Below, in pieces: positions 8,630 to 58,407 of a stretch of DNA of 64,000 bases. The translations under genes and the position numbers were made by a program. Below the pieces are notes generated by a model that made no database searches, was not told the DNA's origin, and saw nothing but the letters and a program-made list of their open reading frames with translations. The first letter of the stretch is position 1; the number at the start of each line of letters is the position of its first letter. This stretch comes from Macrocystis pyrifera (Eukaryota > Sar > Phaeophyceae > Laminariales > Laminariaceae): contig JASSKH010000019.1 of assembly GCA_031763025.1 (NCBI GenBank), positions 7,460,336 through 7,524,335 of the forward strand. The letters are read 5' to 3'.

Positions 8630-8930
8630 CAAATCAATGCTGAACTCTGAAGCAATTTTAATCTTGAGCGCACGGGTCATCCGTAATTTGCGCAATTCCT
8701 TCACGACGAATTCAGGCGCAGCAGAATAAATCGACCGCAAAGACTCCCACGTGCGCTCCTCTGCTTCGAAACCATCCCAATCGACCAAGACAATCACCTC
8801 GTTGGCATCATCTTCGGCCACATGCACCAAAGCATTCATGCGGCATTCACCCTGCGCAAAGGAATGTTGGAAAACATCCTTCAGATCAGCGGTGACGTTC
8901 AACGTCGCATCCGCATAAAATCGTAAACGG
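8630..8930 (-). pseudogene. Chromodomain-containing integrase C-terminal fragment
   Basis: The frame open at 8,627-9,175 becomes protein-like from about 8,929 on, starting RLRFYADATLNVTADL. That segment precedes the chromodomain in many oomycete and algal Ty3/gypsy polyproteins. The chromodomain-like part (about 8,848-8,681) has the VLVDWDGFEAEERTWESL pattern with both conserved Trp residues and a C-terminal helix. It is out of frame with the Gag ORF, which runs to 8,886. The simplest reading is that a deletion joined the end of gag to the end of pol. As it stands it would be translated only through frameshifting or reinitiation. Confidence 0.65.
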
Positions 8931-9836
8931 GCGTCCATGGTTGAATCTGCCCCGGCCGCCATTGCGGCCCCCGCGATACCCTGACGACCCGCGCCCACCA
9001 CTGCTGGGAGCTGTGCCGCCACCGCGAGCTTTTGGGCAATCAGAAACATAATGGTTGGGATCACCACACTCGAAACAGACGCGAACAAACGACTTTTTCG
9101 CGGACTGCTGCTGTTTCGGTTTCTGCTGCTGTTGGCGTCGCGGTTCAGCTGCCCCTGCAGCATCTTTCCGACCATACGCCTCGATGAATTTCCACTGTTC
9201 TGCAGCAGAAAAAATTTGGTCCATGACCAATGCCGGGTCCTTCTTCCACCCTGCAGCGTACGTTAGCTGACCTTTTACGTACTTTTTGAACTCGGACGGC
9301 CATAAGCCATCCACCAACGCCATGCTCACAAATTCCGCCGGTCCGGGCAACCACGAACGGTCCTGCGCGCGGTACATGGCATGCACCGCGTGATTCTCCG
9401 CAAAATACTTTTCCATAGCGGAGTTTACCATCATCGCGCGGTCTTTGACGGATGTTTCACCGCCCTGCTTTTCATCGCGCCTCATTGAGAGAACGCGACG
9501 CAAGTCCGCTGCCGCCCGCGAGGTGTCAAATCTGTTGCTGGTGGTTGTGTAACCAGCGTGCTGCCTAACAGCGTCCAACAACTCCGAGGCGGTCATCGTA
9601 GTCTGATGCTTGTAAAATCCCTCAAAACACCGATGAATGTAATTGGGGATAAGCTGGCCCATGCTCACTTTGGAGTGCTGAACCACCCCCTGAGCGTTGG
9701 CGAGCTGCAGCCGTTCCTCATAATCGAGGTACGCTGCGTAAAAAACACGAGAGGCCTGCTCGGTCCACACCTCTCCGTATTTCGGTGGAGTCAGAGACTC
9801 CCCTACCACCAGCGGCGTGCTTGCCGTGTGCGCCAT
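8886..9836 (-). CDS. gag: Gag protein of gag-only element, CCHC zinc knuckle
   Basis: 316 codons starting MAHTASTP. Residues about 20-220 are a helical capsid-like Gag region with conserved-looking IHRCFEGFYKHQ and FVSMALVDGLWPSEFKKYVKG segments. Residues 230-250 are Gln/Lys rich, and residues 254-267 form CFECGDPNHYVSDC, an exact CX2CX4HX4C zinc knuckle for RNA binding. A Gly/Arg-rich tail follows. The last about 17 residues probably derive from out-of-frame pol sequence after the deletion. The first 284 residues match the second copy at 53.3-54.1 kb. Gag would package element RNA; all enzymatic steps need helper proteins. Confidence 0.85.
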   Translation of the reverse strand: MAHTASTPLVVGESLTPPKYGEVWTEQASRVFYAAYLDYEERLQLANAQGVVQHSKVSMGQLIPNYIHRCFEGFYKHQTTMTASELLDAVRQHAGYTTTSNRFDTSRAAADLRRVLSMRRDEKQGGETSVKDRAMMVNSAMEKYFAENHAVHAMYRAQDRSWLPGPAEFVSMALVDGLWPSEFKKYVKGQLTYAAGWKKDPALVMDQIFSAAEQWKFIEAYGRKDAAGAAEPRRQQQQKPKQQQSAKKSFVRVCFECGDPNHYVSDCPKARGGGTAPSSGGRGSSGYRGGRNGGRGRFNHGRPFTILCGCDVERHR

Positions 9837-10043
9837 AATCCACAGCAGTCCACCTGGACTCTACTGTAATAACGGAGAAACTGCCGCCTGACCTGTGCGT
9901 CCTCCAGCTCCCGGAGCGTCCTCCCCTGCTGTGCGCTTCAAGCCGTTTCGATCCGTCCAACGGGCCAACTGCCTTCCCAGCTGTGACCCAATACTCCGCA
10001 GCCGAAAACTCCTCCAACAGAAGTTCCGCGAATATCTAGATAT

Positions 10044-10275
10044 TATGGCCTCTGCCAGATGATATCAGCAAGAGGGCTTCCAGCGAGGGACTCCACCAGT
10101 CTCGCTGGCCTCGCACTCAGTAAGTCTTGTTCTTAGAGCTTGTATTATCACGGAGTGATCCTCATCGGACCACGAGCCAGGTGGCTAGGGGACATCACAC
10201 AGGATCCCCGGCCACTGCTCCACTCACACATGCGATTACACTGAAACCTCCACGGCTTGGTATCTTTTGGCTACA
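10044..10275 (-). repeat. 5' LTR of gag-only element copy 1
   Basis: 232 bp, the upstream LTR relative to gag. The 207 bases between it and the gag start form the 5' leader. Confidence 0.85.
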
Positions 10276-10786
10276 AGCCCTACACGCCCACAGAGTCGAC
10301 TGACGCTTGTAGCCCATAGGAATTTCATAAAACATATCCTCGCGATGAGGCCTTGTATGAAAATGCTTACGAACACCCGGCATTTCATCCATCACACCAA
10401 AGTCATTTTGCGCGTATAATGGACAGGTTGCAGTTACCTCACCCGCTTGCACCCACGTAGGTAATCGCTCCGTTCACGAACGATTAGTTGAATAACGCAC
10501 AGTTTGATTATGCTGATTTTCAGTCATATTTATCTCAGACAGAGGACGCAGTTCATTGGTCTTCGCTAAGCCCTGATGAGCTTCAAAATTTCCTGGGGCC
10601 TCGTACGTACCGCTTCACAGAGAAACTCTGAACGCAGTGCCCCCGCCTCCCTCACCAATCTAGTTGAACCACAGGAGCGTGACGTTTTAGGGAGCATGTG
10701 TTACACCGATGACTCATCTGACGCCTTCGCCAATACTATTCTCCCTCTGCTTTTCACTTCGCAAGGAGAGTATATTTTTGGACGCA
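10276..10786. other. Flank of the insertion; possible coding remnant
   Basis: Unrecognised sequence continuing the interrupted region before 8,317. Both strands have open stretches of 50-85 codons and none matches a family I know. Confidence 0.3.
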
Positions 10787-24479: not shown

Positions 24480-26690
24480 GTACTGGAGTACGAACTGTAG
24501 CTGACTTATAGCACGAGTACCTACTTTCGACGTTCGTATTTTCACGATACATATACGCATTATCACGATGGCAACGGCCCACGAAAGAAAACAGTTCACC
24601 TACCTTGCTATCCGTCACCGTTAAGGTCGTGCCTGCGTTGGATTCTTTGGTTCAGGCTGTTGCACGGCGCGTCGAGGCCTTCGAATTCTGCGCAGCTCCA
24701 TTTATAATACGATTATATGTTCTGTCCACAGTTTAATTTACTACTGGTTGCGTGTACGTAACGATCATCGGCGAAAGATATCCTTGTATGCCTTTCATCA
24801 TCTTGGACGTTATACTGCGGCATCTTGTTTGGTATGGATGTGTTCACGGTACGTCGAAGCCATCGAAATCTGCGTGATTCCACTGCAATAGAAGTATTAA
24901 TTTCGAATCTAAAGTACCCATGAGACTTGCGAGGACTCAGTCATTTCAACCCCTTGTACCCTTGAGACTCACGAAGACTCCGTCTTTTCGTCTTGTCAGT
25001 ACTTTGACGCACTTGGGGACTCGGTACTTACAAACTACTGGTATTCGTAATTCAACGACTGAGTTCCCGATGACCGGTCAATAATGGTATCCTGCCGGCA
25101 CATTTTTTGCCGTATGTATGTAGTTCTTGTGTCGCTACCGTATTTTCACTCTTGCCCAAAATGCAGCTGACCTCTGTAGTATAACGTTATCATATCGCTG
25201 CTACATTTTTTCGCTCCAACGTCTAATGCACGTGAAACAGGTTGTTATCGTTTCTGGCCGACGTCTTGGGCGAACGTATAGTCCTGCTTTTTGGCCGCTT
25301 TTCTAAGCCCGGCCAATCGTTGAAATTTTAATACCTCCGTCCAACCTTTCACTAAATGGCAACACCTCGGAAACAGCGGGGCAACCCTTGAAAGAGGCCC
25401 TTTTTTCGGCTGAACCGTCGATACATATCTGAAAATGCCTTGTTGATTTTTTTGTCTGAAAATGACAACGTCGTAAAAACTTGGAACGACTCCCCTGGAG
25501 AAAAGAACAACGGGTCTAGATATCTCTCCCCAAAAGACTGCAAGTATTCCGAGAAGAGCGAGCCTGATTCGGTCGGACTCCGGGTGTAAAATATGTGAAA
25601 GCATGTATAAAACACAGTTTCGGGTAAGTTTTTTCGGTTTTCAAAACCCTCCCATAAGAGATGGCCTAAAGGGCTAAAAAGCTCAGGATTCTCCTAGAAT
25701 GGTATCAACCATTCATTAACCACGGAATACGGATCTTGATAGCAAACCTCTCAGTCTATAACTCCAAGTGGTATATATGTCCGAAACGACTACGCGGGGG
25801 TACTTGACGACGCATTCCTGAGCGTGCTATTAATGGCGTTCTCTTTAGCAACGCCTGTCCACATAGTAGAAGCATGTTCTAAGGTCTTACTAACACTATA
25901 TATAACTGTGGGACAAGTTTTTTATGTTCACGAAAATAATTTGTTCACCGTGCGTCATGGAATCTCAACCTGGAAGAGGACATTCGGTAGGGCAGGGGTG
26001 TGCTGCATGACAACACGAACAACAAAACCTCACAATCATTATCCCCCCCCCGCCCTTTTTTCTTACGTAAGTTTCGGTCGAGTAGCAGGAAGGTCTACAT
26101 AATAATTGTTAGAATGGTCGTGCTTGACGAGAAAAACACTTCTTGAATAAAGGCCGAGGTGTCGTCTACGTCATATATTCCTGTTGTCATGAGGTATCGA
26201 CAGTGCTCAAGCTCGTGTGATGCGGAGACCGTTCTAGGGTAGTGGTAAGGGACGCAGGTTGTTCTGGCAGCTGGAAAGCAGTGCTTCGCTTCTTCTGATT
26301 TAGATCTTCTTATGGATGGCGAGAGCTGAGGAGGTGCTCTGGTAGAGAAGTGAGAGGTAGGGGGGTGGGACTCGACGCCCAGATATACTCGTCCCACCCC
26401 ACGCCACAAGCTCTCCTAAATTCCTCTTATCTGATGTACTCCAACAGAACTTTCCTATGGCTACCGATCGTTCTTCTGCTAATATAAGAACTTCTCACTT
26501 CGTAGTCCTATCTGCGTCAAGGAACATTACTCTCGTCTAACGGGCTATCCGCCCTAGCGAACATTCCTAAACTAACGATACTCTCGACTAACGGAATATC
26601 CGCCGGGTTAATCCATTCTTTGGACTATTCTCGTATTCGTGAAACTACAAGACTGCAACGTATTACGAGTATCTATATCTATAGCCCATG
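24480..26690. other. No supported gene
   Basis: Contains one diverged repeat (25,325-25,390, related to 15,740-15,790). The overlapping minus-strand frames at 25.2-25.6 kb do not resemble known proteins. Confidence 0.4.
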
Positions 26691-26699
26691 AATACTCTA

Positions 26700-27000
26700 C
26701 TCATATCACATTAGCCGACCCTGAATAGTCGTATATGCAGACCACAAGATGGTCGGAGGGTGATGACAAAGTTCATCCCGAACGGCCAGGGAAAGGTGGT
26801 CGAAGATGCGGCTATTCGAAACAAAAGAAATGAGGCTATAGATCCCCCCACACCTCGTAATAAACCCCAAACACTACGAAGAGGGGGTGTTCGCTGCGAA
26901 CAACCACGGAAAGGGAGACTATAGGAGAGAGAGACACCGAACTCATAGCAGAGGCGAAAGGAAAAATCACCCAAAATGAAAACAAAGAAAGACGAACGCA
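26700..27000 (-). repeat. Repeat downstream of element A, shared with 52.65-52.96 kb
   Basis: Starts CCCTGAATAGTCGTA and contains TCGAAGATGCGGCT, GAAATGAGG and CACACCTCGTA, in the same order as 52,645-52,960. In both places it lies 3' of a copy of the same Ty3/gypsy family, so it may be distal 3' UTR or LTR of that family. Confidence 0.5.
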
Positions 27001-28287: not shown

Positions 28288-30588
28288 CTAACCAGGGGGG
28301 GGGGGGGGGGAAACGGTGGGGGTTCCGCGGGACACATCAGAGTTCCGCAGCACCCGACGTGCTAGGCTCCCATTCCCATGGCGTTGAAGACACCACGATC
28401 CGTATACGGCGTTCCGTGCTGTAGTGTAGCGGGCGGGTTGGAGGTCGATCTTGATCGGGCCGGGGTCGTCCAGGAACCGGACGATGTAGGAGCTTCCCGG
28501 TGAAGACTCCGGCGGAGTTCCCGAAGAGGCGTCAGGGGGTGAGCTGTGAGCGACCTTGCCCAGCCACCAAAGGCCGTCGCGCGCCTTGTACCATATGTGT
28601 GCTCCGGAGGGTAGGATGGTGGTGCTGAAGTTGTGGAGCCAAAGGCTGCGGGAGACCAAGGCGTAGCCTGGGGCGAGGAAGATTTGTCCTTGGGATCGGG
28701 CCAGTTCGCGGTGAGCGGCGCCGATGCGCATCTGGCGGTAGAGGCGGTTCGTCTGGCGGTGCTGGGTTGGTGAACGTGACCAGTAAAGTAGGATGTGGCG
28801 CCGGAAGTGTTGAAGGTCCAGCTCGCGTTCCCACGAGGGGCTGAGAAGTCCAGTCCAGTGAGTCTCGTACAGAACGGCGATGACCCCGCCGCGGCCGCGT
28901 ACGAGTTGATGGCCAGTGATCTGCTCGACCTCGAGGCGTTCCGGTGGAGGAGTGACGTCGTCGACGGTGACGTGGTAAGGGGGGGACTTGGCGGCAGAAG
29001 CTGTGAGCACGTATGTAGTAAGGTCCGCGGGCAGATGCTTGGGGATGTCGCTGGTGTCGTCGGGGTTCCGGCAAGGTTTGCATCGTTGGACGGATACGCG
29101 TGGCTTGGAGTCCCGTCCCGGAAGGTCCGATGGAAGGTCGAGGAAAAGTAGCTTGTCGTGAAGGGGGCGATTGTCAGGGGTGTTTGAGGCGGGCGTCGGC
29201 CCTACGGCGAGGACCTTGAAGGGGCCATTCCAGCTCAGGGAAAGCTTCGTCTTGAGGACGGTTGCGTCGGTGCCCTTTTTGACGCCTTGGCGGATGGTTG
29301 AGGCGGAGTTGTAGACCCAAACCCAGCCGCCTACGGTGAAGGGGGGGGATGCTAGGAGGGCGGCCATGATGGGCGCATTGCGGCGCTGAAGACGCGAGAC
29401 GGTGAGTCGGTGTAGTTCGCGGACGAGGGAATAGGCGCGTCGTTGTCGGTCGGTGGCGAGATTGATGTAAACCAGGTGATCGCGGTCCAGGCTTTGGTGA
29501 CCGCCGATATTATCGGGTTCGAAGACCGAGAGCGGGAGGCGAGGAAGGCGGCCCATGTGGATTTCGTTAGGTGCAAGCCCTGTGGCGGCGTTCACGGAAT
29601 TGTTGTAGGCCGACGACACGTGTGGGAGCAGCACGTCCCAGTCGGTCTGCTGTTCGTTGCCAACCGTAGAGAGCATTTGGGCCAGTACGTGGTTGACGCG
29701 CTCGACGCCGCCGTTGGTGCAGGGGTGGTAGGAGCTGGTGTTGACCTTGTGGAGGCCAAGGCGTTCGTAGACGATGTTCGCAAGCTTGGAGGTGAAGTGT
29801 AGTCCGTTGTCGGAGAGACGTGTAACCGGGCACCCCCAGAGAGGGATGTACTCGTTCAGGAAGATGTCGGCAGTGCCGGCGGCCGTAAACTGCGCCGCTG
29901 AAACGGCATACATATCGGCGCGGCGGCTGAAGCGGTCGGTGAAGAGGAGGATGTGGACGTTCCCGCGCGGCGTGAGCGGCAGGGGCCCGACGTAGTCGAC
30001 GCTGACGGTGATGCCAGGCCCGTTGGGCAAAGGAACAGAAAGGATGGGCCAACGAATGGTGTGCCGGGAGGTCTTCCGCGCCTGGCATTGAAGGCAACGG
30101 CGGATCCACCAGCGGACGGAAGCGTCGATGCCAATCCACCAAAAGAAACGTGCCAACATACGGACCGTTCGGGTGACTCCCAGGTGTAGAGAGGTGGTGG
30201 CGTGGCATGTGTTCAGCACCCAAGGGCGCATTAACATTGGCACGTAGACGCTTGGGGTAGAGGGGGCGGGTGGTGGTAGGCTGTTCCCGGATGAGGTTGT
30301 GGGTGGTCGTTGAACCAGGAGGGTGGTTTCGTCGTCGGTACGGTGTAGCTTTCTTTTGGAGGCAAGAGTGAGGACGTCCGAAAGTTGTGGGCGCCGGGCC
30401 GGGGGGATGAAGTCCAGGAGGTCGTGCGGCGTGGGGGTGGGAGAGTCCAACGACAGGAAGCGGATGGTGGCGCAGCACAGGGGCTCCGCGCGTTGTCCTC
30501 GCGCCCAGTCTTTGTAGGTGTAGTGCTCGACGCAGGCGAGGAGATAGGGGTCATCATCGGGTTCGACGACGGGCTCCGGAAGGGGCAC
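28288..30588 (-). CDS. Integrase with chromodomain and Tudor-like C-terminus (element A)
   Basis: 766 codons. The zinc-binding HHCC is H129, H135, C165, C168. The catalytic core has D198 (SVDYVGPLP), D260 (LSDNGLHF) and E296 (NGGVERVNH), with exactly 35 residues between the last two, so the active site looks intact. A GPF(K)VL integrase C-terminal motif lies near 455-460. Residues about 551-603 (LEVEQITGHQLVRGRG to DLQHFRRHILLYW) have a chromodomain-like layout. Residues about 661-735 (IWYKARDGLWWLGKV, then YIVRFLDDPGPIKIDL) have the strand pattern of Tudor-like readers. The enzyme would insert element cDNA, with the tail biasing it to marked chromatin. The frame is the same as RT upstream, so the Met is only the first after the TAG at 30,811. 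The C-terminus runs into the G16 tract. Confidence 0.85.
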   Translation of the reverse strand: MPLPEPVVEPDDDPYLLACVEHYTYKDWARGQRAEPLCCATIRFLSLDSPTPTPHDLLDFIPPARRPQLSDVLTLASKRKLHRTDDETTLLVQRPPTTSSGNSLPPPAPSTPSVYVPMLMRPWVLNTCHATTSLHLGVTRTVRMLARFFWWIGIDASVRWWIRRCLQCQARKTSRHTIRWPILSVPLPNGPGITVSVDYVGPLPLTPRGNVHILLFTDRFSRRADMYAVSAAQFTAAGTADIFLNEYIPLWGCPVTRLSDNGLHFTSKLANIVYERLGLHKVNTSSYHPCTNGGVERVNHVLAQMLSTVGNEQQTDWDVLLPHVSSAYNNSVNAATGLAPNEIHMGRLPRLPLSVFEPDNIGGHQSLDRDHLVYINLATDRQRRAYSLVRELHRLTVSRLQRRNAPIMAALLASPPFTVGGWVWVYNSASTIRQGVKKGTDATVLKTKLSLSWNGPFKVLAVGPTPASNTPDNRPLHDKLLFLDLPSDLPGRDSKPRVSVQRCKPCRNPDDTSDIPKHLPADLTTYVLTASAAKSPPYHVTVDDVTPPPERLEVEQITGHQLVRGRGGVIAVLYETHWTGLLSPSWERELDLQHFRRHILLYWSRSPTQHRQTNRLYRQMRIGAAHRELARSQGQIFLAPGYALVSRSLWLHNFSTTILPSGAHIWYKARDGLWWLGKVAHSSPPDASSGTPPESSPGSSYIVRFLDDPGPIKIDLQPARYTTARNAVYGSWCLQRHGNGSLARRVLRNSDVSRGTPTVSPPPPPG

Positions 30589-30810
30589 TGACGGTGGTGT
30601 TTGTGTCGGCGGCGAGGGCGTTGTTAAAGGGGTCGGTCTTTGCGTGGTGGGCGCCGATGGCTTGGGTGGCGGTCGGCGTCCAAACCGGTAGTCGGCTGTG
30701 GGCCGAGGGGTTCCCGCGGCAGCGGCGACGCGATGGCGGGTCCGAGAAGATATCAGACCTGAAAGGGCTGGTGTCGTGGCGCCAATGGTGGGCGTCGGAG
30801 AGACGGCGGA

Positions 30811-31488
30811 CTATATGGAAGCCGAGCCTGGAGGAGCTCCGGTGTTCACGGCGGCATTCTCGGTGCCGGCAAGCGGTCCGGTGGTGGAGTCGCTGGTCGC
30901 AATAGGCCCGATGAAGGTGTGGGTTGCGGGGGAAAGGGTGGGGTGCTCCATACGTGGTCCGAGTAGGCGAAAATCGCGGAAGTCGTCGTCAGTGAAGGGG
31001 AGCGGCTGGACGGTCGGGATGGGTCTGGAAGGGGGGGACACGAGCCCACCCAAGCCGATACCCGGGGTGGAAGGGTCGTTCATCGCGAAGCCGCAGGGGC
31101 GGATGAGGTAGATGCCGACGGTGTCGGGGCCAGTGAGGTGGTTGCGTCCGGTGCGGTCGGCGTCGGTGGCTGGTTGGGGAAGCCGGGAGAGGAAGTCGGC
31201 GTTGCCGTTGGTCGTGCCCTTTCGGTACTCCAGCGTATAGGTGTACGCTGAAAGGAACTCGAGCCATCGCCGGACACGAGCGTTATGTTCTCCGACCTTG
31301 GCGATGTTCTCGAGCGCCTTGTGGTCCGAGTAGATCTGGAAGCGGGTGGACCATAAGTGTCCGCGGAGGCGTTTAATCGCCCACACGACGCTCTCGGCCT
31401 CGAGGTCGAGGGGTGTCCATGAACGTTCGGAGTCCAGGGTGGCACGGCTGATGAAGAGGATGGGGCGGACGGAGCCGTCGGCTTGCTC
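30811..31488 (-). pseudogene. RNase H domain and linker to integrase (element A)
   Basis: This continues the RT frame after the TAA at 31,491-31,489. RNase H features follow in order: ISRATLDSERSW, LDLEAESVVWAI (conserved Glu), FQIYSDHKALENI (conserved Asp) and TNGNADFLSRLP (last conserved Asp). The first catalytic Asp (YCDASIDG) lies just before the stop, at codon 346 of the RT ORF. A poorly conserved Pro/Thr-rich linker follows, ending at TAG 30,813-30,811. After that the integrase continues in the same frame. Confidence 0.8.
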
Positions 31489-32652
31489 TTACTCAAGGGT
31501 CGCTCCGAAGCCGTCGATGCTAGCGTCGCAGTAGAGGCGGAAGGGGCGGGAGTTGTCGGCGACGGCGTCCCAGTCGGGGTAGACGAGGATAGGCGGTTCG
31601 GCAAGTTTTTGGAGAATGGCGTGTACGGTGGTTTCCATGGAGGGGGTGAAGTCGAACTTCGCGCCTTGCTTGAGTAGAGCGTTGATGGGGCGCAGACGTC
31701 GAGAAAGGTTTGGCAGGAACTTGCCGTAGTAGTTGATGCCTCCAAGGAGTGAGCGCACTTGCTTCTTGTCGGTCGGCATGGGCATTCTGATGAGGGCGGC
31801 GACCTTGTCGGAATTTGGGCTGTAGCCGCCAGCGGAAATGGTGTGTCCCAGGAAATCGGGGGTGGTGGCGCCAATTTTGGCCTTGGCGGGGGAGCGTTTG
31901 AGGTGGTGCTTCCGGAGGCGTGCGAAGAGGGCTCTCATGTTTGCGACGTGGTCGGTGGGGTCGGGGTCGAAGACGATGATGTCGTCGAGGTACGCGGCGA
32001 CGCGTTCCAGGCCCTTGATGACCTCGTTGATGACCTTCACGAACCAGCCCGGGGAGGCGCTGCTTCCTTGCGGCAAAACAAGCCATTCGAACAGCCGGTT
32101 GGAAGTGCAAAACGCCGTCAAAGGGATGGTGTCCTCGTCGATGGTGATTTGGTGGAACGAGGAGACCTGGTCGAAGAGAGAAAAGATGCGACCTTTGCCC
32201 AAGGAGTCGAGGACTTCGTCGACGCGGGGGATGGGGAGTTGCCCGAGGGAGCTGATGGCGTTGAGCTTCTTGTAGTTGATCGTAATCCGGACACCTCCAT
32301 CCTTTTTGGGGATGGCCACCATAGGGCTTGAGTATGGCGACGTAGAATGTTGGATCAGGCCGGCGGCCAGGTACTGGTCTAATACCGCGTCTGCCTTCTT
32401 TGCGAGGATGGGGTTGATCCTGTAGGGGCGGGAAGTGATCGGTGCGCTGCCCGGGGGTACGGTGATCTTGAACGGCATCAGCGAGCACGAGCCGAAGTCG
32501 GTTTTTGAGGTGGAGAAAACGTCCTGGAACTCGCAGAGAACGTCTCCCAGGTTGTTGATCACCGACGGGGTCCATCCAGAACCGTGCAGGTCGAAGTTGA
32601 CGTCGCGTAGGTGTGACGGCAGACGTTCCCAGAGGTCGAGGAAGCTGTCCCG
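31489..32652 (-). CDS. Reverse transcriptase (element A)
   Basis: The frame is open from about 32,652 (sequence FLDLWERLPSHLRDVNFDLH), so the GTG at 32,562 is not a real start; this is an internal part of a polyprotein. Counting from 32,562: the fingers motif SRPYRINP at 45-52, AIPKKDGGVRITINYKKLN at 83-101, first catalytic Asp in SLFDQVSSFHQI (D131), LPQGSSASPGWF at 163-174, YLDD box at 191-194 followed by IIVFDPDPTDH, and the thumb/connection FLGHTISAGG and LLGGINYYGKF. These are all Ty3/gypsy hallmarks and the catalytic residues are present. The ORF ends by nonsense inside RNase H. Confidence 0.88.
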   Translation of the reverse strand, partial: RDSFLDLWERLPSHLRDVNFDLHGSGWTPSVINNLGDVLCEFQDVFSTSKTDFGSCSLMPFKITVPPGSAPITSRPYRINPILAKKADAVLDQYLAAGLIQHSTSPYSSPMVAIPKKDGGVRITINYKKLNAISSLGQLPIPRVDEVLDSLGKGRIFSLFDQVSSFHQITIDEDTIPLTAFCTSNRLFEWLVLPQGSSASPGWFVKVINEVIKGLERVAAYLDDIIVFDPDPTDHVANMRALFARLRKHHLKRSPAKAKIGATTPDFLGHTISAGGYSPNSDKVAALIRMPMPTDKKQVRSLLGGINYYGKFLPNLSRRLRPINALLKQGAKFDFTPSMETTVHAILQKLAEPPILVYPDWDAVADNSRPFRLYCDASIDGFGATLE

Positions 32653-32659
32653 TTAGTCG

Positions 32660-33150
32660 GTGTTGAGGCGTGCAAGGAGTTGTGGGCACGGGCGGTAGGA
32701 GGGTCATCTGTCGATGGGCTCTGGTCGGCCACGGGAATGTTGTCGTGGAGGGCATGTACATCCGGAATTTGAGGGGGGTGGGGAGGGGCCAAGGAAGGGT
32801 GTCCAAGGGTGGAAAGTGGTACCTGTACCAGTGGGGAGTAGGAGGTTCCGAGGGGGTCGCCCGGCTCGAGATCGGTAGATCCAGATAGGGGGACCGTTTG
32901 GCATCCGTCGGAGACGAAAATGGCCGTGTCGGAAAGTGGGTTCTCGCGGGGGAGCATGTTCACCATGTAGTTCCCGGTAAATGCTGGAGCGCCTGACTGG
33001 CGCGCCAGGTTGACCTTAACGAGCTTGGGGGCGGAGGAAAGCGATATAGCTTTGTTGCCGGCGAATCGGAGGTGGTAGACGTCGTCAGTGGAACGGTCGT
33101 CGGGAATGAATGCTGAGGCTCCGTTGGGGTCATGGTGGTTCAAGGAGAGC
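32660..33150 (-). pseudogene. Protease-RT linker of element A, out of frame
   Basis: The coding-like sequence GELSLNHHDPNGASAFIPDD to PLSDTAIFVSDGCQTVPL lies in a different frame from protease and RT, which share a frame. Two compensating indels (near 33,152 and 32,660) are the simplest explanation. The segment corresponds to the beta-rich region usually found between protease and RT in gypsy polyproteins. Confidence 0.6.
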
Positions 33151-33954
33151 TCACCGCGGGTTCGCCGGGGAGGTTGGTGGGGGGGGGTGGGGCTGTTGCT
33201 GGAGCGTGGGATACGAGCGTTGCTCGAAGCGCATCCAGCTGTCTCGTCCCAGAAGGATGGGGTGCTGCATGGTTCCTGCAGGAACTACGCAGGCCCATAC
33301 TGCCAGGGCAGCAGTGGGGGACTGGAGGCGCATAAACTGGATGCTTAAGCGGATGGAGACGGAGGTGGAGAGGGGGGCTGAAGTGCCGAAACCTCCCCAT
33401 GAACGGGGGGAACTGTGCCATTCGCACGCATCGGTGGCTGCCTGGGAAGCCTTCAGTTGTTCCACCGCGGTTGCGGTGATAAACGACTGGGGCGAGCCGG
33501 TATCGAGCAGTGCCACGAGTTCGCGGCGCGTAGTGGCGGTGGGGGGGCCGCTGTGCACGAGTACTTTCGTCGTGAACGACGCGTCGTCGACGGTAATGAT
33601 GCCGCTTGTAAGGCATGGTCCGTGTTCCGGTATCGGCGGGCGGCGGGTAGGGAGGTGGCTGTGAGTGGCGGTGTTGATGGTGGACACTTGGGCAAAGTGG
33701 CTGCTGGGGTAGGCGTCGGGGGTAGACGGCGGTAGGAGTGGCCCAAGTGGAGAGGTAGGCGGTTGCCATGGAGGGGTCGAGCTTGTTTCGTGGATGCCGT
33801 CGGCTGTGGGGGAGACCCGAGTGGAGTCGGTGGGGGCGGTGTTGGCTCCGGGTCGTGAAGATGGGGAGGAAATGGAGGCTGGGCGGAGCGATTGGCGCCG
33901 AGGTTTGCTCGAACGTCCATCAGTATCCTGCCCAGCAGATTCCGACCACGCCAA
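33151..33954 (-). CDS. Aspartic protease domain (element A)
   Basis: The frame covers a Ser/Pro-rich linker (STRVSPTADGIHETS) then a retropepsin-like domain: GIITVDDASFTTKVLVHSG, LVALLDTGSPQSFI with the catalytic DTGS, and HPILLGRDSWMRF near the end, the usual second-half signature. Relic B preserves both the linker and VLDTGSPQTFI, so this frame is the correct one. It would cleave the polyprotein. It overlaps the 3' part of the NADAR-frame ORF in a -1 relationship. It ends at TGA 33,153-33,151, where the original frame was probably continuous. Confidence 0.8.
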   Translation of the reverse strand: MAWSESAGQDTDGRSSKPRRQSLRPASISSPSSRPGANTAPTDSTRVSPTADGIHETSSTPPWQPPTSPLGPLLPPSTPDAYPSSHFAQVSTINTATHSHLPTRRPPIPEHGPCLTSGIITVDDASFTTKVLVHSGPPTATTRRELVALLDTGSPQSFITATAVEQLKASQAATDACEWHSSPRSWGGFGTSAPLSTSVSIRLSIQFMRLQSPTAALAVWACVVPAGTMQHPILLGRDSWMRFEQRSYPTLQQQPHPPPPTSPANPR

Positions 33955-34640
33955 CGCGTCGGGTCACAGGCGTCCAGATGGTCGACCTTGAAGCCTATGC
34001 CCCAGATGAGGTCGTGTGGGCTGGCCTCGGCGATGTGCTTGTCGCCGGTTGCTATTAGCTCCTCCCGTAGCTCCGGGTGTTGGCGGAACTTGGAGAAGTT
34101 AATGTAGAGGGCGATGGTGTAGCGGTGTCGCTCCCAGACCATTTCGTCGAAGGCGGAAACGGTTCGCCCAAGTGCTTTTTGGCGGGCTAAGTCGCGGGTC
34201 GCTTTGATGCGGCGCTCAGTTGTGATGTCCCCGAAGAGCGCGGCCTTCTGCGCGATCATCATCTGCTCAGCGCAGTTGTATGTGACGCCATCGTGTTCGA
34301 TGTCGCACAGGTACCACTGCGAAAAGACAGAAGAGGAGTCCCAGAAGAAGTGGAAAGATGAGGCGGCCTCTGCGGTGACGTGTGCAGTTGATGGCGTCTT
34401 TTGTGTCGGGGGTGGGGGGCGACGATAATCTTTCCTATCGCCGCCTGGCGTCGACGGAGGTAGAGTCAGCAACGATCGAGCGGTGCTGGCCGTAAAACTC
34501 GTGTTCGCGGGGGAATTGCTCGGCAAAGCCGAGGTACCGGGGCGGTCCTCGCCGGGGCTTATCAGCCGGGCGGGACGACCCTCAAGCGCCCTATCGTCCA
34601 ACGTTTGGAGAACAGGGGCATACTCGCTAGGGGATGCCAC
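33453..34640 (-). CDS. NADAR-domain protein segment within the polyprotein of element A
   Basis: 395 codons, but only the first about 250 are meaningful. Residues 97-246 (34,352-33,903) match the NADAR (YbiA-like) fold motif by motif: FHFFWDSSSVFSQWY, TYNCAEQMMIAQKA, LGRTVSAFDEMVW, IALYINFSKF, LREELIATGDKHIAEASP, DLIWGIGF and RWRGRNLLGRILMDVR. Family members are N-glycosidases acting on ADP-ribose-type linkages, in riboflavin-intermediate breakdown or reversal of DNA/nucleotide ADP-ribosylation. All the motifs, including the conserved EQ pair, are present, suggesting function was kept until recently. After residue about 250 the real protein probably shifts frame into the protease. The first codon is GTG and the frame is open further upstream, so it is not an independent start. 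The role in the element is unknown. Confidence 0.85.
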   Translation of the reverse strand: MASPSEYAPVLQTLDDRALEGRPARLISPGEDRPGTSALPSNSPANTSFTASTARSLLTLPPSTPGGDRKDYRRPPPPTQKTPSTAHVTAEAASSFHFFWDSSSVFSQWYLCDIEHDGVTYNCAEQMMIAQKAALFGDITTERRIKATRDLARQKALGRTVSAFDEMVWERHRYTIALYINFSKFRQHPELREELIATGDKHIAEASPHDLIWGIGFKVDHLDACDPTRWRGRNLLGRILMDVRANLGANRSAQPPFPPHLHDPEPTPPPPTPLGSPPQPTASTKQARPLHGNRLPLHLGHSYRRLPPTPTPAATLPKCPPSTPPLTATSLPAARRYRNTDHALQAASLPSTTRRSRRKYSCTAAPPPPLRAANSWHCSIPARPSRLSPQPRWNN

Positions 34641-34698
34641 ACCTGGGGTCCGTGTCCACGCTTTGCGCGAAGCAGGCGAGGAGGACGGGCCAGAGGGC

Positions 34699-35775
34699 TC
34701 AGGGCAGACCCTGGTCGACGTTGGTCGCGAGTCTTCCGTATTTAAAACGGGACTGTCCCTCGAGGCTCAGGGACAGCGGTGGTGTCAACACCGTGGCAGC
34801 TGGAGGAAGCCCGTCGTTCGCGGGTTCAACGCTGTCACAAGAAATGCGCGCATGCTGGAACAAGCGCGCATGGAGCGGCCGATTTGTGGCAGGCTCAGGG
34901 GGCGATGGCCCGGTAGACGAAACAGTAGTTTCGTGTGAACCGGAACCGCTGGTAGCCGTAATCGTCGAGACGTTTCCCAGGGTAGCAATGTCTGGGGTCT
35001 CGGCAATAGTCGGCAAGCAGCGTTGCTCACCACCAGAAGACGTCGAGTGGAGCATCCCGGTGGGGCTCGGCGTCTTGACCTCCTCCCGCCCACACCTCAA
35101 GGCAATCACTTGGGCAAGATGATCAGTGCTTGAACAAGTGGCTGTGAAATGGGCTGGGGTAGGGGGGGGGCATTGGAGGGCAGGGGTCGGGGAGGCGTGA
35201 TGCACGTGATTTACTCGTGCGTCCTGGGAGCCTCGGGTGCTCGCAGTAGATGCTGTTAGTGGAGATGCGGCAGTTGCTCCACCAGCGGTTTGTCAGTTGG
35301 TGCGGAAGGTGCCCGGCAGCCGTTGGTTCGGATGGGTACCCGAGTGGTTGCTGCCCATCCGCATGTTCGCGGGGGCGGCAGGTGCGGAAGTGTTGGTCGC
35401 AGGGGTATGCACCGTCAATGCTGAAGACGAGGGGGCAGGCTTGATGCGTTGTCGATGTAACTGTTGCCCTGGCGACTGTCGGTTGCCGTTGTCGTATGAC
35501 CGGCCGTTGTTGTGGCGCCAGTTGTCGGAGTGCCCGTTGTTGCCGCGGTAGTTGCGGGAGTGGTTCTGGTTGGAGCGGTTGCTGTTGTAGTTTCCGCTGC
35601 GGTTGTTGTTGTTGTTGCCTCGACGGTTGTTGTTGTCGTAGCGGTTGGAGTTTCGCTCCAGGTTGTGCTCGTAGTGTCCACGGCGATATAAGAGCATCCT
35701 CTGCTGCCATTGGCGGTAGGCGTACCGGGCTGAGGATGCCGAACGTGTTGCGAAGTGCTCGGAGAAGGTCTTCAT
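34699..35775 (-). pseudogene. Gag/nucleocapsid-like region of element A
   Basis: One frame from 35,775 reads WHGHSMKTFSEHFATRS, then an Arg/Asn-rich stretch of about 60 residues (RYDNNNRRGNNNNNRSGN and similar), a basic low-complexity RNA-binding-like region that could replace zinc knuckles; no CCHC is present. A stop at 35,293 is followed in the same frame by a Ser/Thr/Pro-rich linker (35,205-34,699). The frame then changes to the NADAR frame near 34,700. The capsid part upstream seems missing or scrambled. Confidence 0.5.
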
Positions 35776-36300
35776 ACTATGTCCGTGCCATTGCAGTTGG
35801 GGAAGGGATCACTGTGAGCTCGTAGGGCGTGGGCGTGGGACACCACGACGTTCCGCCTCCGTCGTGGGCTCCGTGGTGGCTCTCGTCATCAGGCTGCGCG
35901 CTCGTGTGGAGAGGGGCGCTGTCGTCGTGGGAGGGCGCTGTCGAGGTGGGAAGGGGCGGTGTCACCGGCGATGGCGTGTCCGTCGTGGGGCGGGTGGTTG
36001 GGGGTGTCAGGGGAGCGGGTCGAGACGGTTGCGTTCCACACATAGCCGCGGCCGGCGTTCGAGTGACAATACCGTGGCTCAAGTAAACGGGTATGGGCGG
36101 CCCCGATGAACTCGGAAGAAACACCCTCGGTGGCGGCGCGGGCCAGAACGAAGGCGATCGACGGGTTACAGTCGGGTGTGAAGAGCCGCCATACACGGTG
36201 TGTCTCTAGCGAGACATCCGAGGCCGTCGGGTCGTGTGTACTCTGCATCCAGCGGAGCTTAGCGTCGAGGAAGACCCAGTCATTGGGCTCAAAGCCGAAC
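35776..36300 (-). pseudogene. N-terminal remnant of element A Gag
   Basis: Two overlapping minus-strand frames are open. One contains NDWVFLDAKLRWMQSTHDP and VWRLFTPDCNPSIAFVLA, which looks structured. The other is Pro/Thr-rich and ends YELTVIPSPTAM, similar to a segment of element C. Frames switch at least once, so the Gag start cannot be placed. Confidence 0.4.
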
Positions 36301-36394
36301 GTCTGCGGGTGCCGGTGCCCAGTGGTATGGAAAAGAGGGGAAAAGGGGAATAGAAGGGAAAGAGGAAAAAAAGAGCAAGGAAAAATCGGTGTGT

Positions 36395-53029: not shown

Positions 53030-54115
53030 TTATGAACACTGTAGGGTATGGCCTCTGCCAGATGATATCAGCAAGAGGGCTTCCAGCGAGGGACTCCACC
53101 AGTCTCGCTGGCCTCGCCGTGCGCTGTGTGGTGATCCGCCAGCGCAAGTGGAGCCGATGCGAGTGCAGCTGAAGCAACAGGCGAAGCCTGTCAAGGCAAC
53201 GCCACGTCGGTACGAACCGACGAAAAGGGACTGGCTCTCGAAGTGCATTGCTGCTTTGGTGTTGCTCCCGCGCCCACCACTGCTGGGAGCTGTGCCGCCA
53301 CCGCGAGCTTTTGGGCAATCAGAAACATAATGGTTGGGATCACCACACTCGAAACAGACGCGAACAAACGACTTTTTCGCGGACTGCTGCTGTTTCGGTT
53401 TCTGCTGCTGTTGGCGTCGCGGTTCAGCTGCCCCTGCAGCATCTTTCCGACCATACGCCTCGATGAATTTCCACTGTTCTGCAGCAGAAAAAATTTGGTC
53501 CATGACCAATGCCGGGTCCTTCTTCCACCCTGCAGCGTACGTTAGCTGACCTTTTACGTACTTTTTGAACTCGGACGGCCATAAGCCATCCACCAACGCC
53601 ATGCTCACAAATTCCGCCGGTCCGGGCAACCACGAACGGTCCTGCGCGCGGTACATGGCATGCACCGCGTGATTCTCCGCAAAATACTTTTCCATAGCGG
53701 AGTTTACCATCATCGCGCGGTCTTTGACGGATGTTTCACCGCCCTGCTTTTCATCGCGCCTCATTGAGAGAACGCGACGCAAGTCCGCTGCCGCCCGCGA
53801 GGTGTCAAATCTGTTGCTGGTGGTTGTGTAACCAGCGTGCTGCCTAACAGCGTCCAACAACTCCGAGGCGGTCATCGTAGTCTGATGCTTGTAAAATCCC
53901 TCAAAACACCGATGAATGTAATTGGGGATAAGCTGGCCCATGCTCACTTTGGAGTGCTGAACCACCCCCTGAGCGTTGGCGAGCTGCAGCCGTTCCTCAT
54001 AATCGAGGTACGCTGCGTAAAAAACACGAGAGGCCTGCTCGGTCCACACCTCTCCGTATTTCGGTGGAGTCAGAGACTCCCCTACCACCAGCGGCGTGCT
54101 TGCCGTGTGCGCCAT
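53030..54115 (-). CDS. gag: Gag protein of gag-only element copy 2, chimeric C-terminus
   Basis: 361 codons. Residues 1-284 match copy 1 (8,886-9,836), including the CX2CX4HX4C zinc knuckle at 254-267. From about 53,263 down the frame enters the captured RT fragment in antisense and then the truncated LTR, giving an unrelated Cys/Ser-rich tail (NTKAAMHFESQS onward) that ends in the flanking DNA at 53,030. The capsid and RNA-binding parts look intact, so it may still make usable Gag. Confidence 0.8.
   Translation of the reverse strand: MAHTASTPLVVGESLTPPKYGEVWTEQASRVFYAAYLDYEERLQLANAQGVVQHSKVSMGQLIPNYIHRCFEGFYKHQTTMTASELLDAVRQHAGYTTTSNRFDTSRAAADLRRVLSMRRDEKQGGETSVKDRAMMVNSAMEKYFAENHAVHAMYRAQDRSWLPGPAEFVSMALVDGLWPSEFKKYVKGQLTYAAGWKKDPALVMDQIFSAAEQWKFIEAYGRKDAAGAAEPRRQQQQKPKQQQSAKKSFVRVCFECGDPNHYVSDCPKARGGGTAPSSGGRGSNTKAAMHFESQSLFVGSYRRGVALTGFACCFSCTRIGSTCAGGSPHSARRGQRDWWSPSLEALLLISSGRGHTLQCS
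53119..53267 (+). other. Captured antisense Ty3/gypsy RT fragment
   Basis: The plus-strand frame reads EPMRVQLKQQAKPVKATPRR then YEPTKRDWLSKCIAALVLL. This is the N-terminal RT signature (PVKA.PRRY.P...) of a gypsy element different from A, whose equivalent is ITSRPYRINPILAKK. Orientation is opposite to gag. Confidence 0.65.
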
Positions 54116-54322
54116 AATCCACAGCAGTCCACCTGGACTCTACTGTAATAACGGAGAAACTGCCGCCTGACCTGTGCGTCCTCCAGCTCCCGGAGCGTCC
54201 TCCCCTGCTGTGCGCTTCAAGCCGTTTCGATCCGTCCAACGGGCCAACTGCCTTCCCAGCTGTGACCCAATACTCCGCAGCCGAAAACTCCTCCAACAGA
54301 AGTTCCGCGAATATCTAGATAT

Positions 54323-54554
54323 TATGGCCTCTGCCAGATGATATCAGCAAGAGGGCTTCCAGCGAGGGACTCCACCAGTCTCGCTGGCCTCGCACTCAGT
54401 AAGTCTTGTTCTTAGAGCTTGTATTATCACGGAGTGATCCTCATCGGACCACGAGCCAGGTGGCTAGGGGACATCACACAGGATCCCCGGCCACTGCTCC
54501 ACTCACACATGCGATTACACTGAAACCTCCACGGCTTGGTATCTTTTGGCTACA
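54323..54554 (-). repeat. 5' LTR of gag-only element copy 2
   Basis: 232 bp, reading as identical to both LTRs of copy 1. Confidence 0.85.
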
Positions 54555-54879
54555 AGGGGAAGCGGGAAATTGACAATGTATTTTTCTCCGAAAACGCATA
54601 CGCTATGAAGGACGAGGGCATTAGGGAATGCCCCGAATACTGCAAGGCAAACCGAAAACCGTAGGTCGTATCAAGGCTAGTCGCGGCTAAGACAAGGATC
54701 ACAGGGGGCCCAAAGAAAGACCCGGAAAACGGCAACAGGAGCATGCAATCTAAATCGAGTCCCGTACGCTGAAATAAAGTAGGAAGTAGAAAGTATCTGT
54801 CCAGCATATACGCAGGCTACGAAAAGTTGAAAAATCTTAAAAATGTGTAGGCAACAGTCATGGCCGAAAATGCTGTAGG

Positions 54880-55762: not shown

Positions 55763-57043
55763 CTAAGAAGGGGCAGCGTACTGGCGTCGCGAAACGACGG
55801 TAAACGAGCCCAAACGACCGGGAGAAGTACTCAACGCTAAAGGAGGCAACTGATGGGGGCCAAGCGGGGCAGTCACAGGCCCATCGGGCCCGTCAGAACT
55901 ACGTAATACCCCGCGAGCTAGCCTCCCAGTTTTATGGCGTTGCAAACATCACGATCCGTAGGTGGCGACGCTGGAGGTTGTGCAAATCACCGGCCGAAGG
56001 TTGATCTTGACCGATACAGGGTCGTCGAGGAACCGGATGATGTAAGGGTTGTCCGAAAGAGAGTCCGAGGGAACGCGATATGCGATCTTGCCCTGCAGCC
56101 ATAGGCCATCGCAAGCCTTGTACCAAAGGTGTGCTCCCAGTACGGTGGAGCTGAAGGAGAGAATCCAGAGATCGCGCATAAAGAGGGTGTAGCCGGCGAG
56201 GAAGATTTTGCCTTTAGAACGCGATAGCTCGCGCTGCACGGCACCGATGTGCATCGATCGGTAGAGGCGATTCGCTTGGCGGTGTTGTGTAGGGGTGTCG
56301 GATCATTAGAGGAGGATGTTGCTTTTGGAGGTTAGATGTCGAGTTCCCGCTCCCAGGAACGGCTAAGCAGTCCGACCCAATGGTTCTCGTGTTGGACCGC
56401 GATAGCCCCGCCACGGCCGCGAACGAGTTGGTGTCCCGTGATCTGTTCAACCTCGAGGTGTTCCGGGGGAGGTGTGACGTCGTCGAAGGTGACGTGGAAG
56501 GGAGGGGTTTTGCAGATAAAGGCGTTGAGCACCTACTTAAAAGGTCTGCTGGAAGGTACTTGGGCACGTCGTTGGTGTTGTCGGGGCTCCGGCAGGGCTT
56601 GCAGCGTTCAACGGAGACGCGGCGTTTTGAGTCCCGTCCAGGTTGGTCGGAGAGTATGTCGAGAAAGAGGACTTTGTCGAAAAGTGGTCGGCTGTCGGTG
56701 ACGTCGGGGCCCGGCGCTGGGTCCACACCGAGAATCTTGCACGGTCCAATCCAGTTCAGCGAAAGCTTGGTCTTGAGCACCGTGGTGTCCGTGTCTTTCT
56801 TGACACCCTGGCCGATAGTGACCGCGGAGATGTAGACCCATGCTTAGCCGCCCACGGTTTAGGGGTGAGAGGCGAAGCGCGTCCATGATGGGGTTGTTGA
56901 GGCGGGCCATACGTGAAGCAATGACGGCGTGGTGTTCGCAGACGAAGTGGTTGGCGCATTGTTTGCGCTCGGTGGCAAGGTTGCAGCAAGCCAGGTGGTC
57001 TCGGTCCAGGCTCTGGTGGCCGCCAATGTTGGGGGATTCGAAA
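55763..57043 (-). pseudogene. Integrase C-terminus, chromodomain and Tudor-like tail of relic B
   Basis: Frameshifted but clearly homologous to residues about 357-750 of the element A integrase: NIGGHQSLDRDHLACCNLA, LSLNWIGPCKILGVDP, LPGRDSK-like QPGRDSKRRVSVERCKPC, LEVEQITGHQLVRGRGGAIA with SWERELDI (chromodomain), and AHLWYKACDGLWLQGKI with PYIIRFLDDPVSVKINL (Tudor-like). Conservation of both tail modules in a second copy supports their functional value in the family. Confidence 0.8.
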
Positions 57044-57443
57044 TGTGATGGAGTAGCACACCTATTGTATTGGGACGCATATACCCGTGTACGGATCATT
57101 GTATGGTTGCACATAGCTCTTTGAAAATACGAGACATACCTGCAGATGAATATTATATTGTTGTATGTAGACACGTAGGGATATATCTGCAGGCCAATAA
57201 GATATAGTTATACATAGCTCTTAGGGAATATTCAGTGGAGCAGTTCAGACATCCCCTTGCCCACAGAATTCTATGTTATATGTCTGCGGACCTTCTGCAT
57301 GACAACGTCCCGGGAGAGAACATTCTGCTATTGTTGGGAATCGTTTGGATGACAACGTTCCGATAGCCTGTATCTGCATACAGGTTTGTTTATGTCGACG
57401 TCTGGGCTGAGCTGTGTTCTTGGCGAAGCCCACTATCGCTCAC
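57044..57443 (+). repeat. Truncated LTR, inverted relative to 58.4-58.9 kb
   Basis: Starts TGTGATGGAGTAGCACAC and matches the first 400 bp of the LTR at 58,428-58,963 in opposite orientation, stopping at TATCGCTCAC. It lies exactly at the junction between integrase and protease parts of relic B, so it marks a rearrangement breakpoint or a truncated insertion. Confidence 0.65.
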
Positions 57444-57444
57444 A

Positions 57445-58023
57445 CCACACGGCTAGGGCGGCTGTGGGAGAGGTGCCCCTCAGGAACTGTGCAGTAAGTC
57501 TGATGGAGTCGGAGGTGGTGAAGGTGGCGGGGGCGCCGAAGCCGTGCCATGAGCGGGGGGCTCTGCGTCGTTCGCACGCATCGGTGGCGGCGCCGCAGGT
57601 CTTCAGTTTGTCCATCACTTCAGCTGAAATAAAAGTTTGCGGAGAACCCGTATCCAGTACAGCTTCGGTGATGTAGCGTTTGACGGCCTTGAGGCCTCTG
57701 TGAACTCGCACCCTGGCTGTAAAGAATGAGTCGTCGACTGTTAAGACGCCGCTGGAGAGGCAGGGTCCATGTTCTGGTATCGTGGGCGCAGTAACGATGG
57801 GATAGGGTTTGGCTGAAGTGGCAGGTGGCCGGGTAAAGTGGCTCTTTGGCAATGCGTCCAGGGTGGAGGCAATCAGGAAATCGGTAAGCAGGCAACTCCG
57901 TGAATGTTGCGAGGGAGTATCAGCTGTCTCGTAGATACCGTCATCGGTGGGGGTCACTCGGGTGGAGGGTGTGACGGTGCTTGTCGGGTCATTGTCCCTG
58001 GAAGGGAAAGGAGGGGGGGACAT
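57445..58023 (-). pseudogene. Aspartic protease segment of relic B
   Basis: Reads STRVTPTDDGIYETADTP, IPEHGPCLSSGVLTVDDS, EAVLDTGSPQTFISAEV and ATDACERRRAPRSWHGFG, collinear with 33,300-33,850 of element A. Truncated at the right end of the LTR fragment. The DTGS motif is present. Confidence 0.75.
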
Positions 58024-58045
58024 CCTGTCGGACGGACATAAGCAC

Positions 58046-58258
58046 TCACCCTAGAAGGTTTGAACCCTTCCAGAGCGAAAGTTGGTAGGCCCGTGGATAT
58101 TCGGCCCTGAAACCTATGCCCCAGATAATGTGCAAAGGGCTGGCTTCGTCGGTAAAGGTAAAGTGCAGCCCGTTGTGTGACATGAGGGGAACGGGACACA
58201 CCCACAGAGGGATGTACTGGTCGATGAGGATGTCGACGGTGCCGACCATTTCACCCAC
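58046..58258 (-). pseudogene. Integrase fragment fused to NADAR C-terminal fragment (relic B)
   Basis: A single 70-codon frame. The first half, VDILIDQYIPLWVCPVPLMS then HNGLHFTFT, corresponds to the integrase core around D260. The second half, EASPLHIIWGIGFRAEYPRA then WKGSNLLG, corresponds to the last quarter of the NADAR domain, followed in order by the protease. The fusion reverses the normal order (NADAR precedes integrase), so it arose by recombination between copies. D260 of integrase is lost (SHNG for SDNG). Confidence 0.75.
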
Positions 58259-58407
58259 GAACGCTAGGAGCGCAGCCTGGGCGCTTGACCCGGTTTCCCT
58301 CCCGAGGACGCCATTTAGCAGGGGATCCCAGGGTATCTCCGGCCACGCCCGAGACCCTCCTACAGATATGGGTTAAAACCCGATTTCGAATTCACGCGAA
58401 GGGTCGT

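Follow-up and report, generated by a model that had tools for sequence, protein, structure and literature searches.

A NADAR domain in the polyprotein of a high-copy Ty3/gypsy retrotransposon lineage of the kelp Macrocystis pyrifera

A stretch of 64,000 nucleotides from the genome of the kelp Macrocystis pyrifera (contig JASSKH010000019.1; C199:7460336-7524335 in our searches), hereafter the window, contains a NADAR domain built into a Ty3/gypsy retrotransposon polyprotein. Sequence evidence assigns this domain to a decayed element of a brown-algal Ty3/gypsy lineage with a high copy number, in which NADAR occupies the N-terminal region of Pol, after Gag and before the protease. Its position in the window is as follows.

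33903-34352, minus strand: NADAR domain (PF08719), with a Pfam profile match, PDB matches, and all eight ADP-ribose-contact residues present

The five NADAR motifs quoted in a preliminary description of this DNA were found in the window sequence exactly as given, and the profile search proposed there gave a match far above the cut-off. The PF08719 profile matched the minus-strand open reading frame (ORF) 34766-33453 with an E-value of 5.2e-45 and 154.1 bits (cut-off 35.1) over profile positions 1-162 of 163, i.e., the full domain, and this E-value rules out a chance match. By sequence, the domain matched the PDB entries 8bau (E 5.6e-17) and 2b3w, E. coli YbiA (E 2.3e-5). The comparison with YbiA that had also been proposed led to the same assignment: an AlphaFold2 model built with 31 relatives (mean predicted local distance difference test score 90.4) matched 8bau, the P. 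nicotianae NADAR with ADP-ribose (E 1.3e-9, template modeling scores 0.70/0.74), and 2b3w (E 5.1e-7), and the structure search revealed no other match at E 0.001. In this model, the window domain has a YbiA-like fold. The YbiA-type Glu at position 125 was present in all 40 aligned copies (described below); the main text of PMC11543638 gives the equivalent residue as Glu in the YbiA family, Asp in BC4488, and His in phage NADARs. The minus-strand order claimed earlier, with a Gag remnant followed by NADAR and a DTGS protease, was borne out, the protease having a weak Pfam match (E 0.018).

NADAR copies and conservation of the ADP-ribose pocket

The genome searched comprised 537,376,219 bases in 223 contigs. 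A six-frame PF08719 search yielded 1,264 first-look candidates, and the best 150 were scored; all of them exceeded the Pfam family cut-off and 126 had no internal stop, in a set that is skewed toward intact domains. This bias was sidestepped by a second sample selected by the reverse transcriptase (RT). Here 107 of 4,104 candidates were scored (108 rows with 71-100% identity, including about 37 places at ≥87%, namely 36 of the first 53 rows and C221:753779), 102 of the 107 places were used, five already among loci L009-L028 being dropped, and 20 evenly spaced elements were taken from the 101 places outside the window. NADAR was present within the 751 bases tested upstream of RT in 18 of these 20 elements, and was not detectable there in L043 and L048. 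In all 20 NADAR-selected loci L009-L028, the order of NADAR, protease, linker, RT (in full or as its N-terminal portion), and RNase H was kept, and L021 had a single open frame of 1,696 amino acids (aa) containing NADAR, RT, and RNase H. NADAR is multi-copy and a regular component of Pol across the lineage, located between Gag and the protease. Insertion of a single host gene into one element was rejected, since 150 scored genome copies and 18/20 RT-selected elements carry the domain. Two further NADAR matches (C207:3553518-3554054 and C220:11674539-11675078) sit in open frames of 2,349 and 2,016 aa, which exceed the other frames listed; these are perhaps copies reading Gag and Pol without a stop.

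The alignment for comparative analysis included 40 copies: the window, 13 RT-selected copies, and 26 NADAR-selected loci. The latter are L001-L028 without L001 and L004, which duplicate L009 and L010; among the 18 RT-selected copies, five were excluded because their NADAR was broken or cut at the stretch end. The copies form subfamilies A (with the window), B, C, and D, with a mutual identity of about 45-58%; subfamily D is represented by a single, stop-containing copy (L057). The ADP-ribose contacts given for the P. nicotianae NADAR in the main text of PMC11543638 are E43, K50, R79, W89, R93, E125, D130, and W133. These eight residues were retained in 317 of 320 cells of the alignment (103/104 in the 13 RT-selected copies), and the three exceptions were E43 to G, twice, and K50 to M, once. 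The majority residue is shared from A to D in 51 of 149 columns; all eight contacts are among them (chance about 1.3e-4). Therefore, loss of the catalytic positions in a family alignment, which the preliminary description had considered, was not observed.

The ratio of nonsynonymous to synonymous substitution rates (dN/dS, pooled NG86 estimates), a further check proposed there, was 0.63 for NADAR within subfamily A, 0.50 within B, and 0.28 within C (three copies); values of 0.5 to 0.6 are moderately below 1, with few changes. Between subfamilies, it was 0.18 for A-C and 0.14 for B-D, the other four of the six pairs being beyond use with their synonymous sites saturated. A same-locus comparison gave 0.55 (A) and 0.50 (B) for NADAR vs 0.66 and 0.58 for RT; in subfamily A the values for RNase H, integrase (five copies), and protease (three copies) were 0.38, 0.87, and 0.76. 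The divergence between A and B was faster in NADAR (proportion of nonsynonymous differences, pN, 0.349) than in RT (pN 0.139), and the A and B RTs are about 72% identical. These sequence comparisons indicate that NADAR is under purifying selection between subfamilies, with the ADP-ribose pocket kept across all four.

Of 8,000 candidates scored in a search of protein sequences, 7,826 matched the A-D alignment with E-values of 1e-10 or lower. Among the 120 matches listed, the named ones belonged to bacteria (Nannocystis, Planctomycetota) and brown algae, including stand-alone NADARs of Ectocarpus, Pylaiella, and Scytosiphon (P0007, P0008, P0041, and P0044), and identity to subfamily B was at most 64%, save for P0118 (72%), which was taken for a probable element protein. 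In a weakly resolved tree (52 rows, 147 columns), where the labels "element" (P0002, P0009, and P0118) and "stand-alone" (P0028) are our own assignments, B and D were placed beside the brown-algal stand-alone NADARs (98/83), while A and C formed a separate group (95/87); a single clade of all element NADARs was not rejected (p 0.29). Direct capture from bacteria, suggested for Ectocarpus, is neither favored nor rejected by this tree. A kelp stand-alone NADAR closer than the elements was not found among the 150 candidates scored, out of 1,403, in an intron-blind search (best identity 59%). The Ectocarpus protein P0127 (1,398 aa) contains NADAR, RT, RNase H, and integrase; therefore, the NADAR lineage is not confined to kelp. 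Its RT is 70% identical to that of the window over 385 residues, and its NADAR is 47% identical. Two other proteins have lost some contacts: P0005 (ENA), with NADAR and protease in one frame, at E125 (to K) and R93 (to C), and P0006, with NADAR at the end of an apparent long interspersed nuclear element (LINE) ORF1 as judged by eye, at K50 (to M) and R79 (to K) according to the alignment.

The window element, derivatives lacking RT, and the Gag end

Other parts of the window element, including its long terminal repeat (LTR), and a relic of a related element were located as follows.

26216-26710, minus strand: 3' LTR, sharing about 91% identity with that of the C223 copy
28288-30810, minus strand: integrase, zinc-binding part (PF17921, E 4.9e-15) and core; a chromodomain may lie close to the C-terminus
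30811-31488, minus strand: RNase H (PF17917, E 9.3e-19)
31489-32652, minus strand: reverse transcriptase ORF (PF00078, E 4.6e-26)
32559-33284, minus strand: protease-RT linker, homologous and in order in 20/20 long loci
33151-33963, minus strand: putative aspartic protease frame with DTGS, C-terminal to NADAR (weak Pfam matches, E 0.018 and 0.025; motif found by eye)
34353-35292, minus strand: Pol N-terminal arm, from the Gag stop to NADAR, its frame broken in the window copy
35258-35283, minus strand: 7-bp stem-loop beginning 9 nt past the Gag stop
35293-35295, minus strand: Gag stop codon TGA, followed by CAA, the proposed readthrough site
35293-36330, minus strand: Gag remnant, with the N-terminal part and an Arg/Asn-rich C-terminus and a central deletion of about 960 bp near 35830
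58049-58147, minus strand: C-terminal fragment of NADAR within a further relic, rearranged and derived from a related element; its PF08719 match (E 0.0015) does not reach the family cut-off

The Ty3/gypsy order of protease, RT, RNase H, and integrase holds in the window, the protease being recognized by its motif and the weak Pfam match; the protease region was homologous and in order in all 20 long loci. The integrase core (rve, E 1.5e-4) and a Chromo domain near the integrase C-terminus (E 0.048) matched under their Pfam cut-offs. Past the putative chromodomain (window 28288-29130, minus strand), a stretch of about 100 residues (WYKARDGLWWLGK ... RFLDDPGP) looks conserved by eye in Ectocarpus P0127 and had no confident family match. 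NADAR and protease of the window copy occupy different, overlapping frames because this copy is broken; a programmed frameshift was rejected, since a single frame runs through both in other copies, and the split reflects decay. Similarity to other copies ends near 36330 on the 5' side, and the 3' LTR (26710-26216) was the only LTR found within the window. The related relic (55935-58372, minus strand) consists of integrase and protease pieces, with the C-terminal NADAR fragment joined behind an integrase piece. Elsewhere in the window, a 1,290-bp stretch occurs twice (8317-10277 and 53047-54556), 100% identical and 44 kb apart, and a 232-bp part of it is itself repeated at 8317-8548 and 10044-10275 with zero differences. 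By sequence, these twin stretches look like a very young non-autonomous LTR element.

Six of the eight A-type long loci share a deletion corresponding to window positions 32446 to 31265, which takes out most of RT and the RNase H start and has the same junction with small variants. A 32-nt junction pattern had 127 genome matches at ≤3 mismatches and none in the reversed control. A scored NADAR match was located 1.1-1.5 kb upstream on the same strand at 57 of 100 listed junction places, which is a lower bound derived from the 150 best NADAR matches alone; 51 of these 57 NADARs were stop-free, with the same skew toward intact domains. The RT-less copy L028 (C223:177849-190927; 13,079 bp) has 496-bp LTRs that are 100% identical and an ACGG target-site duplication. 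Judging by these features, L028 has moved recently despite its lost RT core, and therefore it was probably helped in trans. No LTR pair was found in the 2.5-kb flanks of L018 (C222), the second of two copies tried, and none inside the 9.9-kb stretches, since the similarity between copies extends to the stretch ends.

A second shared deletion, of about 960 bp, removed the Gag core and putative zinc knuckle from the window and six further copies. These parts are present in L025, whose 656-aa ORF contains a C-X2-C-X4-H-X4-C pattern recognized by eye and had no Pfam match. The two deletions occur in all combinations (L025 has neither, L017 has both, L022 has the RT deletion with the Gag core, and L027 has RT without the Gag core), a pattern suggestive of recombination among copies. 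NADAR is carried by elements that need a borrowed RT; it could be kept there by selection, or the copies could simply be young.

The C-terminus of Gag was searched for without requiring a stop in 27 copies (L002-L028 without L004, plus the window) and was recognized in 25 of them (not in L016 and L021). TGA directly follows the Gag end in 21 of these 25 copies, comprising all 16 B copies, the RT-bearing A copies (L025, L027, and the window), and the RT-less L017 and L024. In the RT-less A copies L018, L022, L026, and L028, GGA replaces TGA, and a second Gag end in the RT-less L024 also reads GGA, so a universal stop at the Gag end was rejected by this stop-independent search. TGA was found in every recognized RT-bearing copy, and the observed GGA sites were confined to RT-less copies; in this RT-less lineage (L018, L022, L024, L026, and L028), Gag and the NADAR part may form one frame that needs no readthrough.

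In 20 of the 21 TGA copies, the next codon is CAG or CAA; L024 has CCA. The protein right behind the stop reads Q-A-D-G-G in most A and Q-V-D-G-G in most B copies with differing third positions, as expected if this stretch is translated. The stem 9 nt past the stop has 7/7 pairs in 20 of 21 copies and 6/7 in one, and shows compensatory differences between A and B, which are just two independent lineages. The fold energy of the 100 nt after the stop, relative to shuffled sequences, had a z of -2.2 in A and was not better than shuffles in B (z 0.4). TGA was in frame with NADAR at 9 of 20 measured sites vs one third by chance; L020, L024, and L027 are in frame and open from UGA to NADAR, and the indels and stops of the remaining copies are probably due to decay. 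Since NADAR is placed at the Pol N-terminus behind a Gag UGA, a CAR codon, and a hairpin, UGA readthrough, and with it packaging, is likely in the kelp element. Candida Tca2 likewise has UGA between gag and pol, and PMC2194720 reports no demonstration in S. cerevisiae of readthrough driven by the sequence flanking it.

Possible function of the element-borne NADAR

We tentatively propose, with a probability of roughly 45%, that NADAR works as a glycosidase on the RNA or cDNA of the element, freeing it of ADP-ribose or related ribosyl adducts. Readthrough of the Gag UGA would yield Pol including NADAR, which, by analogy with the Gag-Pol layout, could be packaged with Gag and then released by the protease. 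The enzyme would thereby be enclosed with the RNA genome and single-stranded cDNA, where it could hydrolyze N-glycosidic ADP-ribose or related ribosyl adducts on the amino groups of guanine; left in place, such adducts would block reverse transcription or integration. Its role would be protection against host nucleic-acid modification or chemical damage. Both the substrate and this purpose are suggested by analogy with the P. nicotianae enzyme. A more far-reaching version is doubtful: that brown-algal retrotransposon particles carry an active eraser of nucleic-acid ADP-ribosylation, which would imply a host defense ADP-ribosylating retroelement guanine, and that RT-less parasites keep the eraser to protect their own genomes. 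If true, such a defense would be a eukaryotic parallel of DarTG acting against phages. Should the domain prove active, a mobile element would have incorporated an ADP-ribose-removing enzyme into its replication machinery, which would point to nucleic-acid ADP-ribosylation in algae and possibly to a new defense layer against retroelements. Even otherwise, the kelp family is a natural data set with hundreds of copies, at least four subfamilies, and at least one copy with identical LTRs.

Several points weigh against the proposed glycosidase function. Besides the skew of the best-scored loci toward intact domains, the two RT-selected elements with no detectable NADAR, the modest dN/dS within subfamilies, the GGA sites, the B fold energies, and the reading-frame count given above, they include synonymous sites that are near or past saturation between subfamilies, leaving two usable pairs. 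DarT (PF14487) had no match across the kelp genome in an intron-blind search that was positive in 1 of 14 control genomes, and no PARP is known to us to produce guanine-N2 adducts. One PARP exon match (positions 8-58 of 199) was found in the kelp genome and none in the 14 prokaryotic-type control genomes.

An alternative that we consider rather less probable than the glycosidase function is that the substrates of NADAR are soluble NAD or ADP-ribose products, or RNA ends (e.g., ADP-ribose 1''-2'' cyclic phosphate), and not ADP-ribosylated cDNA or RNA; the domain would then either help to process the RNA intermediate or block a NAD-derived signal of the host. The same conserved pocket is compatible with such substrates, a role in RNA-intermediate processing was suggested by the Ectocarpus authors in the main text of PMC12477816, and a jumbo-phage study (PMC7824862) suggests that NADAR destroys host ADP-ribose signals and notes that eukaryotic RNA viruses have it as well. 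On the other side, the best eukaryotic NADAR biochemistry, as described in PMC11543638, is guanine-ADP-ribose hydrolysis on DNA, and an enzyme held in particles at Pol dose would be badly placed to reach a cytosolic signal.

General repair is quite unlikely. Here NADAR would be a house-cleaning glycosidase for ribosylamine-type or other damage of nucleic acids or the nucleotide pool, with no host defense involved. Bacterial and plant NADARs clear reactive riboflavin intermediates, according to PMC11543638, and the absence of DarT matches in the intron-blind search is in line with this reading. The reason for an element to carry an enzyme that the host supplies is unclear, other brown algae having the stand-alone NADARs P0007, P0008, P0041, and P0044.

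It is improbable that NADAR is an ADP-ribose reader or a structural spacer, for instance one steering the particle or integration complex to ADP-ribosylated chromatin, with hydrolysis being unimportant. The possible terminal chromodomain, weak in the window and putative in Gypsy-12_Ec32 in the main text of PMC12477816, indicates that chromatin targeting may matter. Conservation of E125, which matches a residue reported as catalytically important (D171 in E. coli C7), in 40/40 copies argues for hydrolysis, and the protease between NADAR and integrase would be expected to cut NADAR away.

LTR elements are known to capture host or foreign genes, and many kelp copies are broken. A functionless captured fragment multiplied by the success of the element is nevertheless highly improbable, and is largely refuted by the conservation pattern: eight contacts kept across four subfamilies at about 50% identity, dN/dS of 0.14 to 0.18 for the two measurable subfamily pairs, and the presence of NADAR in the Ectocarpus element P0127.

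Comparison with known systems

The NADAR of DarTG1 (DarG1) belongs to the same superfamily as the kelp domain and has the same proposed chemistry; the DarG1 type (BC4488 subfamily) differs in having Asp where the kelp domain has the YbiA-type Glu. Closer is the P. nicotianae NADAR (8bau), a eukaryotic guanine-ADP-ribose hydrolase that removes ADP-ribose from guanine (PMC11543638). It shares the fold and all eight ADP-ribose contacts with the kelp domain at 31% identity over the structural alignment, and the main text of that paper, from which the string "retro" is absent, does not place it in a retroelement. Fusion of NADAR to a retroelement protein also occurs in the ORF1 of oyster Tx1 LINEs (main text of PMC12477816; P0006 is similar), which differ from the kelp Ty3/gypsy lineage in element class and in the placement of NADAR.

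The closest counterpart is an Ectocarpus element. The preliminary description was right that a real NADAR, with its ADP-ribose pocket kept, is part of a multi-copy Ty3/gypsy polyprotein, while its claim that no LTR element of this kind had been described did not hold. PMC12477816 (Genome Biology, 29 Sept 2025) had already reported NADAR at the N-terminus of an Ectocarpus Gypsy Pol and, in its main text, proposed a horizontal origin of this domain; it was the sole description of NADAR in an LTR element found in the literature on NADAR/YbiA and retroelements, other papers being judged partly by title. Gypsy-12_Ec32 of that study is alike in having a YbiA-family NADAR in the N-terminal region of a brown-algal Ty3/gypsy Pol. 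Its C-terminal chromodomain is putative, and the kelp counterpart is the weak Chromo match (E 0.048). Kinship to the Ectocarpus lineage was measured here through P0127 rather than the Gypsy-12 consensus. The main text of PMC12477816 does not contain the terms "readthrough," "stop codon," or "catalytic," and its passages on "nonautonomous" elements do not deal with Gypsy. Compared with that report, the present description covers giant kelp and a high copy number, with contact residues tallied and a Gag-UGA-Pol layout and an RT-less derivative described; as far as searched, pocket conservation across subfamilies, this layout, and an RT-less derivative that bears NADAR are additions to what the main text of that paper describes.

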